IMG/VR virus record: IMGVR_UViG_3300021477_000032
Coordinates: 1-20,572 of that record
DNA: 20,572 nt
Strand: one strand, 5' to 3'
Source of the DNA: a virus
Position 1 is the first letter of the stretch. The number at the start of each line of letters is the position of its first letter. A model generated the notes under the pieces. It was given only the letters and a program-made list of their open reading frames with translations. It was not told the origin of the DNA and searched no databases. The translations under genes were made by a program, and so were the position numbers. Of this stretch, positions 9,935 to 20,572 are shown piece by piece.

Positions 9935-10471
9935 ATGGCCTATAAAGAAGTATCGGATCTGTCTGCAGATACCACCATTAGCTTGGGTGGTTCGAACCGT
10001 AAGACTGGTAAAGCTAACCCTACCAGCATTGAAGGTTACTATTTGGGTAGCCGTCAAGTAGAAGATAAGAAGAAGAAGTCTGGTCTGTCGTATATCTATA
10101 TCTTCCAAACTGCCAAGGGCAATGTTGGAGTATGGGGCAAGACTGATATGGACCGTAAGATGCAAGCTGTAACGCCCGGCCACATGGTCAAGGTATCATT
10201 TGATAAAATGGTTCCGACACCTAATGGCGAAATGTACAAGTACAAAGTCCAGTTCGATGAGACCAATACGATTGAAGTCGTAGGTGGTAACGAGACTTTG
10301 GAGGCTGCAGCTGAGCAGGACGAAGCCGAGCGCACATTTGATTCTGAACAGACCGAAGAAGCTGAAGAAAGCGATGATGATGTAATGGCCCGTTTGGCAG
10401 CAGAAGCCGCCGACCGTAAGGCCCGTACACAAGCTATCCTTGCTAAAGCTAAAGCCGCTAAGAACCAGTAA
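9935..10471 (+). CDS. Single-stranded DNA-binding protein (OB-fold) with acidic tail
   Basis: A 178-residue protein. Residues about 30-115 have the strand pattern of an OB-fold (SIEGYYLGSRQVE, SYIYIFQTAKGNVGVWG, GHMVKVSFDKM, YKYKVQFDETNTIEVVG). They are followed by a strongly acidic linker (AAEQDEAERTFDSEQTEEAE) and an Ala/Lys-rich C-terminal helix. In phage SSBs acidic segments recruit replication and recombination partners; here the acidic stretch is internal rather than at the extreme end. It immediately precedes the primase-helicase and polymerase, as expected for an SSB. AAGGAG lies before the ATG. SSB identity is inferred from fold pattern and context. Confidence 0.65.
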   Translation: MAYKEVSDLSADTTISLGGSNRKTGKANPTSIEGYYLGSRQVEDKKKKSGLSYIYIFQTAKGNVGVWGKTDMDRKMQAVTPGHMVKVSFDKMVPTPNGEMYKYKVQFDETNTIEVVGGNETLEAAAEQDEAERTFDSEQTEEAEESDDDVMARLAAEAADRKARTQAILAKAKAAKNQ

Positions 10472-17911: not shown

Positions 17912-18199
17912 TTGCTCCCCTTTCTTAAAAATAAACAGCAATCAGTCGCTGGCCTCATTATAAAAGGTCGCACACCAGACCAAAAAGATGGTCAAGACCA
18001 AGAAAAACCTAGTGATTTAGAAGATTGCGCTAAAAGCATTATATCGGCTATTGAGTCGAAGGATGCTAGCGCCCTTGCTGAAGCAATGCATAAGGCATTT
18101 AAAGCAATGGAGAAGATGCCTCACGAAGAAGCATCGCATAAGGACCAGAACCCGTCTCCGCACACTTATGATGCGCAGAACATAAAGGCTGCTGAATAA
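17912..18199 (+). CDS. Hypothetical small protein after the terminase (TTG start)
   Basis: A 95-residue protein read from TTG at 17912, with TTGGAGG about five bases upstream. It starts MLPFLKNKQQSVAGLIIKGR. A disordered Asp/Gln/Lys-rich stretch follows, then a helix (CAKSIISAIESKDASALAEA and MHKAFKAMEKM), and it ends with a polar tail. No known family is recognised. Position after terL and before repeated beta-rich genes suggests a virion or assembly role. Its stop joins the next start as TAATG. Confidence 0.65.
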   Translation: MLPFLKNKQQSVAGLIIKGRTPDQKDGQDQEKPSDLEDCAKSIISAIESKDASALAEAMHKAFKAMEKMPHEEASHKDQNPSPHTYDAQNIKAAE

Positions 18200-18522
18200 T
18201 GGCTGATTTTAAGCACGTATTGACCTTCCAAGGTTTAGGTGAGGCTTGCAGCTTCATCGCTGTAAACCAAGACGATTACTTCGTTAAAGCAGATATCACG
18301 CTACCCACTATCCCTACTGCTGGCATGGTCTCTGAAGTCGCAACCACGATCAATCAAAACGGATCACCGGTATACGTAAGTGCTCCTGGTATCTCAGGTT
18401 TTAAGCACGTCTTGTCCTGCCTCCCTGGTGATGTAATCACTGTAGTTCTTAGTTCAGCCCTTGCTTCTGATGCAGCCTTAAACGTAGTTAAAAGCACTAT
18501 CTCCTTCGGTGAGGGACTATAA
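18199..18522 (+). CDS. Tandem beta-rich paralog 1
   Basis: A 107-residue beta-sandwich-like protein and the first of three neighbouring paralogs. Shared landmarks are GLG near residue 12, a TLPT(I) strand, an NQNGSPVY turn, GF(K/H) in the middle, DVITVVLSS and the ending LNVVKSTISFGEGL. No signal peptide or membrane helix. Small Ala/Ser/Val-rich repeated beta proteins next to packaging genes are often virion decoration proteins (inference). It is joined to the genes on both sides by TAATG. GAGGG at its end serves the next gene. Confidence 0.8.
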   Translation: MADFKHVLTFQGLGEACSFIAVNQDDYFVKADITLPTIPTAGMVSEVATTINQNGSPVYVSAPGISGFKHVLSCLPGDVITVVLSSALASDAALNVVKSTISFGEGL

Positions 18523-18845
18523 TGGCTGATGTATATAAATCAATCGTGTTCGGCGGTCTTGGAACTGTCAGCTTTACTGCTCCAGAAGCCAATAACTATG
18601 CTGTAGACGTTAAGATCAGCCTCCCGACTATCACTAGCGGTGCAGCAATCGATAGCCTCCTTGTTGTTACTGTGAACTTAAATGGTACGCCCTGGTTCAC
18701 TACTGAAGCTGGTCAACAAGGCTTCCATACTAGCGTTTTATGTGCTGTAAACGATGTTATTACTATCGTATTTGCTTCTAGCAATCCGGCTGATAACTCG
18801 CTTAACGTAATCAAATCGACTATAGCCATCAGTGAGGGAGTATAA
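18522..18845 (+). CDS. Tandem beta-rich paralog 2
   Basis: A 107-residue paralog of its neighbours, with GGLGTVSFTAPEANNYAV, SLPTITSG, NLNGTPWF, GFHTSVL, NDVITIVFAS and the ending LNVIKSTIAISEGV. It shares EANNYAV with the third copy, so copies 2 and 3 are the closer pair in the N-terminal part. The start is TAATG-coupled to copy 1 with GAGGGA just upstream. Probably the same fold and virion-type role as copy 1, possibly forming hetero-oligomers. Confidence 0.8.
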   Translation: MADVYKSIVFGGLGTVSFTAPEANNYAVDVKISLPTITSGAAIDSLLVVTVNLNGTPWFTTEAGQQGFHTSVLCAVNDVITIVFASSNPADNSLNVIKSTIAISEGV

Positions 18846-19171
18846 TGAGTAACTTGTCTAATACCCAAATGATGAGTGGTCTTGGAACTGCTACATACAT
18901 AGCTCCGGAAGCTAATAACTATGCCGTTAGCGTTACTATCTCTGCTCCTGCCTTGTCACAAGATTCTAGTGCTAATAGCCAAGTAGTGTGCGTAATAGCT
19001 CATAATGGTACACCAGTAGTAACCAGCGTTCCTTGCGTTAAGGGCCTTCAGTGCGTTATTAACAGCGTAGCAGCTAGCGATACTATTACCGTAACTCTTA
19101 GCTCATCGGCACCTGTAGATCAGGGCTTAAACGTCATTAAATCGATTATAACTATAAGTGAGATTATCTAA
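18845..19171 (+). CDS. Tandem beta-rich paralog 3
   Basis: A 108-residue third copy: MSGLGTATYIAPEANNYAV, SAPALSQ, AHNGTPVV, SDTITVTLSS and the ending LNVIKSIITISEII. It has lost the GF motif in the middle (GLQ instead), carries extra cysteines, and its end lacks the GAGGG-TATAATG junction of copies 1 and 2. That difference marks the boundary with the following nuclease gene. TAATG-coupled start with GAGGGAG upstream. Confidence 0.8.
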   Translation: MSNLSNTQMMSGLGTATYIAPEANNYAVSVTISAPALSQDSSANSQVVCVIAHNGTPVVTSVPCVKGLQCVINSVAASDTITVTLSSSAPVDQGLNVIKSIITISEII

Positions 19172-19172
19172 A

Positions 19173-19592
19173 ATGCCTACGGGCATTTATGAACGTAAGA
19201 ATAGATTAACGGCCGAGCAGAAAAAGGCCAAAGCCGCAGAGCGCATGAGAAATGCCTATGCGAGTAAAAAGGAGATTCGGGACCGACAAAAATCGTTAAA
19301 GCTGCAGAAAGCTTATGGAATAACGCTGGAACAGTATGACGATTTTAATAAAGCCTTTGAAGGAGTATGCCATATATGTGGCAATGAGTGTCCTTCAAAA
19401 CGTCGGCTTGCAGTAGATCACGAACATAAAGACGATGGCCTAATTAGAGGTCTCTTATGTATCAACTGCAATAAAGGCTTAGGTAACTTTAAAGATAGTG
19501 CGGCTTTGATGAAAAAAGCCATTAAGTATTTGAAAACGTTCGATAAAATTAAAACTGAGGTCGAAAGTGCCATTAAAAAAATCGTCGAGTAA
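19173..19592 (+). CDS. Endonuclease VII-type nuclease, likely homing/mobile
   Basis: A 139-residue His-Me finger nuclease. A basic N-terminal half (MPTGIYERKNRLTAEQ, then a Lys/Arg-rich helix) is the kind of DNA-binding arm seen in phage homing nucleases. The catalytic half has CHIC (Cys66, Cys69), LAVDHEHK (Asp82, His83), RGLLCINCNKGLG and a helical tail. It belongs to the same family as the gene at 7357 but has a different N-terminus. The frame opens at GTG 19158, but MPTGIY is a typical first sequence, so ATG at 19173 is preferred. It lies between structural-type genes and interrupts their junction pattern, which suggests insertion. Its 3' end overlaps the next gene by 26 bases. Confidence 0.8.
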   Translation: MPTGIYERKNRLTAEQKKAKAAERMRNAYASKKEIRDRQKSLKLQKAYGITLEQYDDFNKAFEGVCHICGNECPSKRRLAVDHEHKDDGLIRGLLCINCNKGLGNFKDSAALMKKAIKYLKTFDKIKTEVESAIKKIVE

Positions 19593-20433
19593 AAAAGCAT
19601 TTGAGCATAATCTCAAAGCTGAGTTACATGCAGGGAAGCCAAAGGACCAATCGTTGGCCATTGCGTATTCTGTTAAACGCAAAGCCGGTAAGAAAAAGAT
19701 GGCCAAGGGCGGCGGAGTACATCAAGAAGACACTCCAATGGGCAAGGGCGTTTCGGCAGCTGGCTATCACGCTCGCTCAGCTAAAGAAATGGCTGACAAA
19801 TACGGCGCTACTGATAGCGCTCCATTGAATGTCGCAAAGCAAGCCCATCGCGAAAAACTCGCTGAACTAAAAGCTATGCCCAAAGTCCCCAAGTACGCCG
19901 AAGGCGGCGAAATCTCGGCTAAAGACGAAAAACGCCCTAATCCCAATGACTTATACAACGATGCTAAACAAGCACACCAGTCCGAAGCACGTAAACCCCT
20001 AAAGAATAGCGACTGGACCGATAACCCGACTGTAAAGCAAGCCCAAGCTAACAATAGCCGTAAAGTAATGCCTATTGCACGCCCTAAAATGGTGCCGACC
20101 AATGCATTCAGCACTAAGCTTTATAACCAAGAAGGCCAGCTAGAAGATAGCATGCCACCGTCCAGCCCTAAAGATCAGCCGGATCAGGACTATAACGAAA
20201 TGGGCGCTAAGCGTCAAGGACCTAAAGTCCCTGATATGGCTCATCAGCATAACAACGGTAAAGCACCTTATAAAGAAGAAATCGAAGACCAGTACAGCCA
20301 AGACGAAGCTGAATCAGACATGAAGCAAATGGCTGAAGGCGGGGACGTTACTCGCGGTCAAGAACTGGACAAAGGTCTTAAGGGCGAAATCAACAAGCTT
20401 ATCTCCTTCTCAAAGCAGAAGAAGATGGCCTAG
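19567..20433 (+). CDS. Basic low-complexity phage protein with AEGG repeats, apparently frame-broken at its end
   Basis: Read from GTG at 19567 (GAGG upstream), the 288-residue product starts MPLKKSSSKKAFEHNLKAEL and has a basic helical N-terminus (QSLAIAYSVKRKAGKKKMAKGG). The rest is a polar, probably disordered Lys/Glu/Gln/Pro-rich chain. Short glycine repeats recur: MAKGGGV (45), YAEGGEI (110) and MAEGGDV (255). A fourth, YADGGIL, occurs after the stop in the -1 frame, so the TAG at 20431 is probably not the native end. Such proteins sit in phage structural regions; function unknown. It may be a virion-internal or DNA-associated protein (inference). Confidence 0.7.
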   Translation: MPLKKSSSKKAFEHNLKAELHAGKPKDQSLAIAYSVKRKAGKKKMAKGGGVHQEDTPMGKGVSAAGYHARSAKEMADKYGATDSAPLNVAKQAHREKLAELKAMPKVPKYAEGGEISAKDEKRPNPNDLYNDAKQAHQSEARKPLKNSDWTDNPTVKQAQANNSRKVMPIARPKMVPTNAFSTKLYNQEGQLEDSMPPSSPKDQPDQDYNEMGAKRQGPKVPDMAHQHNNGKAPYKEEIEDQYSQDEAESDMKQMAEGGDVTRGQELDKGLKGEINKLISFSKQKKMA

Positions 20434-20572
20434 AGCATCCAGCCCATGAAGAAGAAGATAACGACCAAATGCGCCCGGATATGTCTGAGTACATGTCTGG
20501 CCGTATGCCAGCATATGCCGATGGCGGTATCCTGGGCGACGCGGAGGACACTTTAGATCCTAGCGTACCGTT
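20382..20572 (+). CDS. Continuation of the AEGG-repeat protein in the -1 frame (partial)
   Basis: This frame is open from 20382 to the window end. It encodes an acidic stretch (AEEDGLEHPAHEEEDND) and then MSGRMPAYADGGIL, another copy of the upstream repeat motif. No start codon precedes 20469 in this frame, and the ATG there has no proper Shine-Dalgarno site. The simplest reading is that translation passes from the upstream frame at CAAAG (20411-20415), joining SFSK to AEEDG. That would need a one-base indel (natural or from sequencing) or a -1 ribosomal slip. Confidence 0.6.

Follow-up and report, generated by a model that had tools for sequence, protein, structure and literature searches.

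The lambda G/GT tail chaperone involves a programmed frameshift whose direction, -1, is also the direction of the frame change found in the DNA described here. Programmed -1 frameshifting is described for phage tail assembly chaperones (HK97-type cluster, PMC3711429; tail chaperones, PMC10885494), and the overlapping frames of such genes are likewise present in the analysed stretch, which is an entire virus record (20,572 bases, no completeness estimate) and is called the window in the following. According to Antonov et al. 2013 (PMC3711429), singletons that have a homolog of the fused product are expected to be sequencing errors and not genuine indels, and breaks near the 3' ends of genes are more often real. 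The gene analysed here, which is located between the genes for the terminase large subunit and the portal protein, is probably one continuous gene, carried by an uncultured tailed phage, that was broken by a one-base error.

The repeat gene changes frame near the end of the record

The 5' part of a gene with A-x-G-G repeats extends from 19567 to 20433 on the plus strand, with a GTG start at 19567 and a TAG at 20431-20433. The encoded protein of 288 residues contains the repeats YAEGGEI and MAEGGDV and ends with SFSKQKKMA; its counterpart in the nearest relative, locus L002, is the open reading frame (ORF) 814-2550. The two frames cross at TCA-AAG-CAG (20410-20418), and in the zero frame the TAG is the sixth codon past AAG. 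From 20382 onward the -1 frame has no stop up to the record end (63 codons), and it contains YADGGIL; indeed, the original prediction had stated that the repeat continues past the stop in this frame. At the junction C-TCA-AAG (20409-20415, plus strand) the length differs by one base from L002 and the frame changes to -1. The continuation of the repeat gene in the -1 frame (20415-20572, plus strand) comprises 52 complete codons and is cut off by the record end. From the frame break to the record end there are 159 bases; the gene runs off this end, and the C-terminal part known from relatives is absent from the window. The first ATG of the -1 frame, at 20469, lies within a stretch that is conserved among relatives, and the earlier statement that the downstream frame has no good start is a fair description.

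The continuation of the motif was compared with its occurrence in intact genes. Among the 55 distinct intact genes taken from the best 80 of 139 portal relatives, the 17,695 in-frame codons contain A-x-G-G 239 times, whereas the 35,280 off-frame codons lack it entirely; as these genes are mutually related, the counts are not independent. By such counts the out-of-frame YADGGIL is far beyond chance. In a wider set of loci, one loose off-frame match of the motif within a gene was found (SACGGA in L146). The open alternate frame alone is weaker evidence, because 46 of 3047 off-frame stop-free runs in the same 55 genes reach 63 codons.

The nearest relative carries the gene in one piece

When viral contigs were scanned with the protein of 288 residues as query, 11 loci were obtained, of which L002 (IMGVR_UViG_3300021405_000167) was the closest. 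The last 241 bases of the window are 93% identical to L002, and the sole gap of this alignment is one base long and located at the junction. It had been proposed that an A was lost from the CAAAG run. L002 does differ by one base at the junction, but the gap falls outside the A run, which is not longer in L002. As to whether related phages have the gene fused or split, it is fused in the nearest relative: the repeat gene of L002 is one unbroken ORF (578 residues), and downstream of it are a gene for 98 residues, the portal gene (phrog_156, E 2.7e-15) and further ORFs. A comparison of the L002 portal protein with phage records gave no match. The break corresponds to about residue 350 of the 578, in the middle of the gene of L002, so that the remark on 3' ends in Antonov et al. 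is of no help to the assumption of a real mutation.

Past the junction, 47 of the 52 residues in the -1 frame are identical to L002. The 159 bases contain 15 substitutions, of which 8 are at third positions of the L002 frame and 14 are at 20474 or beyond; upstream of the junction, 20 of 23 substitutions relative to L002 are at third positions (614 bases). Judged from these substitutions, the far tail is more diverged, yet still looks coding-like in the -1 frame.

The two genes also differ in length. Window positions 20332-20349 are faced by positions 1603-1770 of L002, which has a net 186 additional bases there (62 codons), and a 65-base direct repeat of L002, with copies at 1099 and 1720, adjoins these extra bases. 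Recombination appears to add modules to the repeat gene and to remove them; Tandem Repeats Finder detected no array in the repeat gene of L002.

Portal- and terminase-linked relatives

The N-terminal 46 residues of the repeat protein match phrog_2423, a family of function unknown (E 1.1e-14), and a second, weak match to phrog_16764 was found at residues 127-164 (E 0.0037); Pfam and NCBIfam gave no match for the repeat gene at E 0.1. Whereas phrog_2423 is 52 positions long, the gene of the window and its portal-linked relatives extend into an acidic A-x-G-G region; in Enterobacter phage phiEap-2, the gene matching residues 1-35 is just 135 bases long. In the window, L002, L016 and L017 the repeat gene is located between terminase and portal, and this position, together with the composition of the protein, suggests that the product is a packaging- or head-assembly-related accessory protein. 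A search for a host via relatives in genomes gave 47 portal and 187 terminase pattern matches, none of which was confirmed.

An alignment of three portal sequences led to 139 confirmed relatives in viral contigs, of which the best 80 were retained. The N-terminal domain was found upstream of the portal gene in 64 of these 80 loci, and all 64 (best 80 of 139) have it in one closed, uninterrupted ORF; they correspond to 55 distinct proteins. Counted from the N-terminal match, the portal-linked proteins are 160 to 573 residues long, and their genes mostly end 215-450 bases ahead of the portal gene (both for the best 80 of 139). All 55 distinct proteins (L019-L098; best 80 of 139) have an acidic A-x-G-G body and a basic C-terminal end, whose last 20 residues have a net charge of +1 to +8; an initial regular expression written for the C-terminal block fitted 5 of the 55 and was discarded. 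The test for conservation consisted of a closed ORF and a search for off-frame A-x-G-G, and it misses a split with a motif-free second part (cf. L174 and L176, below). Off-frame A-x-G-G was present in 5 of the 64 loci, each time in a portal-near ORF that by eye resembles the small gene at this place. The 16 portal loci among the 80 that had no N-terminal match upstream of the portal were kept outside the 64; 12 of them have an A-x-G-G ORF and 4 have none. Extra ORFs with the motif in L033, L058 and L081 are, by eye, terminase, the small pre-portal gene or a gene of the 107-aa type.

In a tblastn search, the proteins of three relatives, L019 (same contig as L002), L074 and L102, aligned on either side of the break, each side in a different frame. 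For the two spanning proteins besides that of L002, the -1 part alone was matched weakly (34.3 and 29.6 bits); in the DNA of L074 and L102, the counterpart stretch reads on without a stop. These three spanning proteins, as well as the fused gene of L002 and of 64 out of 64 portal-linked relatives (best 80 of 139), support the preference for an indel over a -1 slip that had been expressed in the original prediction.

From 121 terminase relatives, the best 80 were retained, and 88 loci outside the portal set were examined, 60 of which have the N-terminal domain. The 50 terminase-linked loci with the domain (best 80 of 121) include 21 repeat proteins that had already been counted; of the other 29 (best 80 of 121), 4 run off the contig, 23 are one closed ORF, with a basic end as judged by eye, and 2 are arranged otherwise. 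A loose off-frame A-x-G-G was found in 5 of the 25 closed new proteins of the terminase set, either in the gene or within 600 bases after it (L128, L129, L135, L146 and L158).

In L174 (3245-3822) and L176 (7022-7656), two overlapping genes, each with its own start, stand in place of the repeat gene. The first gene encodes 86 and 100 residues, respectively, with a phrog_2423-like domain and one A-E-G-G; the second encodes an acidic protein with a basic end, and its ATG overlaps the stop of the first. As evidence against a frame break, the original prediction had named homologs whose gene terminates at this same stop and is followed by a separate gene with a good start. The downstream genes of L174 and L176 are indeed separately started, but neither locus ends at the stop of the window gene, and neither continues the repeat out of frame. 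Ten loci (L003-L012) are of another, short kind, with 64-65 residues and one motif, and several have off-frame A-x-G-G nearby; in the two examples examined, L007 and L011, A-x-G-G motifs are found in the ORF that follows. Going by these layouts, the repeat-gene family is not always one gene, and the arrangements of L174, L176 and the short kind are natural two-gene arrangements, not breaks at the site seen in the window.

Neighbouring genes and the remaining part of the window

A free-standing gene of the endonuclease VII-type HNH family (PF02945, E 5.5e-21) is located at 19158-19592 on the plus strand, between a 108-aa gene and the A-x-G-G gene, and its end overlaps the GTG of the latter. The window has 413 bases (19179-19591) where L002 has 19, and in L002 the repeat gene directly follows the 108-aa gene. 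The HNH gene has the appearance of a homing-type insertion. Three consecutive genes of 107-108 residues (18199-18522, 18522-18845 and 18845-19171, plus strand) have similar ends, LNV[VI]KS, and cross-matches of 134 bases with about 70% identity link them to non-corresponding places in L002. By sequence, the three look like tandem duplicates; the one that was scanned (18845-19168) gave no PHROG match.

Other damage in the window was searched for by tblastn with 2056 ORFs of relatives, of which 552 gave matches. From position 10,000 on every 500-base bin was covered, some by 1 to 4 queries only; before 10,000 this was the case for 3 of 20 bins, and the first 10 kb were hardly probed. A second frame break was not flagged in the half of the window that is covered by relatives. 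In addition, L099 (IMGVR_UViG_3300021180_000139) aligned with the window over 4125 bases at 98.5% identity and L002 over 834 bases at 95.8%, both without a gap; the 9 gapped positions of the remaining L002 alignment form blocks of 3 and 6, which keep the frame.

Cause of the frame break

A length difference of one base at 20409-20415 shifts the frame to -1, and a pair of proteins would probably not be made. We consider the break a singleton one-base indel, for which a sequencing or assembly error is the probable cause and likelier than a real recent mutation, a tentative second choice; very little is left for all other causes. The break is present in one record only and intact homologs match both frames, very near records having possibly been left out; moreover, a junction-spanning pattern that allowed 0-7 intervening bases matched one viral contig, which is the intact relative (the record of the window itself and those closest to it were possibly omitted). 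The omission of records very near the window could conceal a relative with the same break. An error within the final 160 bases of the contig would be the most likely cause. Read coverage usually falls toward contig ends. Against an error, the differing position is outside any long homopolymer, which does not fit a classic homopolymer miscount, and the last 159 bases align with L002 through the final base, so the end is not generally garbled. The location of the gap outside a homopolymer also favours a real, recent one-base indel in the phage population that cut the protein to 288 residues, which we hold to be possible but doubtful. Consistent with such a mutation, the family tolerates large variation in length (160 to 573 residues from the N-terminal match, best 80 of 139), the gene is modular, with the net 186 bases of L002 shortly upstream of the junction and the 65-base direct repeat, and, with a net charge of +5, the truncated end (KGLKGEINKLISFSKQKKMA) resembles the basic ends of relatives. 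This end is basic by coincidence, as a shift of frame turns the GAA-GAA run into AAG-AAG; since it is basic all the same, tail charge alone is not enough to rule out a working short form. However, a net-positive tail follows the acidic body in 55 of 55 distinct portal-linked proteins (best 80 of 139), and a tail pattern, which was written after viewing the tails, fits 45 of the 55 and is absent from the truncated protein. Furthermore, the -1 frame after the break is coding-like (47 of 52 residues as in L002, 8 of 15 substitutions at third positions), and a mutation would, for this reason, have to be young. If it were real, the C-terminal part would be lost from the protein, the phage might live with the truncation or be a losing variant, and the break would be one more truncating allele of a fast-changing repeat gene.

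Programmed -1 ribosomal frameshifting at TCA-AAG, which would give the 288-aa form and a longer fusion, is very improbable. The two frames do overlap, with the continuation in -1, the lysine tRNA could re-pair from AAG to AAA, and the 85 bases downstream can fold into a 10-bp hairpin at 20475-20500 that is missing in L002. However, this hairpin starts about 60 bases past the slip site, and the downstream fold is no better than that of shuffled sequences (z -0.72 for 85 bases, with 46 of 200 shuffles as good, and +1.14 for 65 bases); the same test, a pseudoknot-free folding, gave z 0.43 (85 nt) and 1.06 (65 nt) for the unbroken L002. The sequence at 20410-20418 agrees with the earlier remark that TCA-AAG-CAG is not an X-XXY-YYZ slippery heptamer, and the same is true of C-TCA-AAG; CTCAAAG is not enriched either (4 in the window, 2.81 expected), and the break is present in 0 of the 64 portal-linked relatives with the N-terminal domain (best 80 of 139). 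Programmed frameshifting was rejected on the grounds of unbroken relatives, a non-canonical site and a non-significant downstream structure. Still less probable is a real loss of one base that is rescued by low-level slippage of the lysine tRNA at TCA-AAG. Both a full-length form and a truncated form, the latter having newly acquired a basic tail, would then be made, and the slippage would be a 'savior' frameshift in the sense of Atkins et al. 2016 (PMC5009743). The lowest probability is given to a pair of separate genes in which the second has a start of its own, for which the ATG at 20469 in the -1 frame would be available. The distant loci L174 and L176 have such a pair, a domain gene and an acidic, basic-tailed gene that overlap and are separately started, but in these, unlike in the window, the split comes at 86 and 100 residues, where the stop overlaps an ATG. 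In addition, the stretch from the junction to the first ATG is protein-like and continuous in L002 and has stop-free counterparts in L074 and L102; a separate downstream gene at the window's site is contradicted by L002, L074 and L102 and was rejected. As a caution for similar cases, a break that lies no more than a few hundred bases from a contig end and is missing in close relatives should be presumed to be an indel before recoding is considered.

Comparison with known systems

The window gene, between terminase and portal, has a different position from that of the tail assembly chaperones in the articles cited above. Unlike the tail-chaperone frameshifting described there, the window has no conserved break, no X-XXY-YYZ heptamer and no significant structure. 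The survey of Antonov et al. (PMC3711429) is concerned with complete genomes, whereas the present case lies at the end of a virus contig. With the break read as a singleton indel, the locus nevertheless resembles category i of this survey: no recoding signal was found, a single record is affected, and the fused product matches an uninterrupted homolog.
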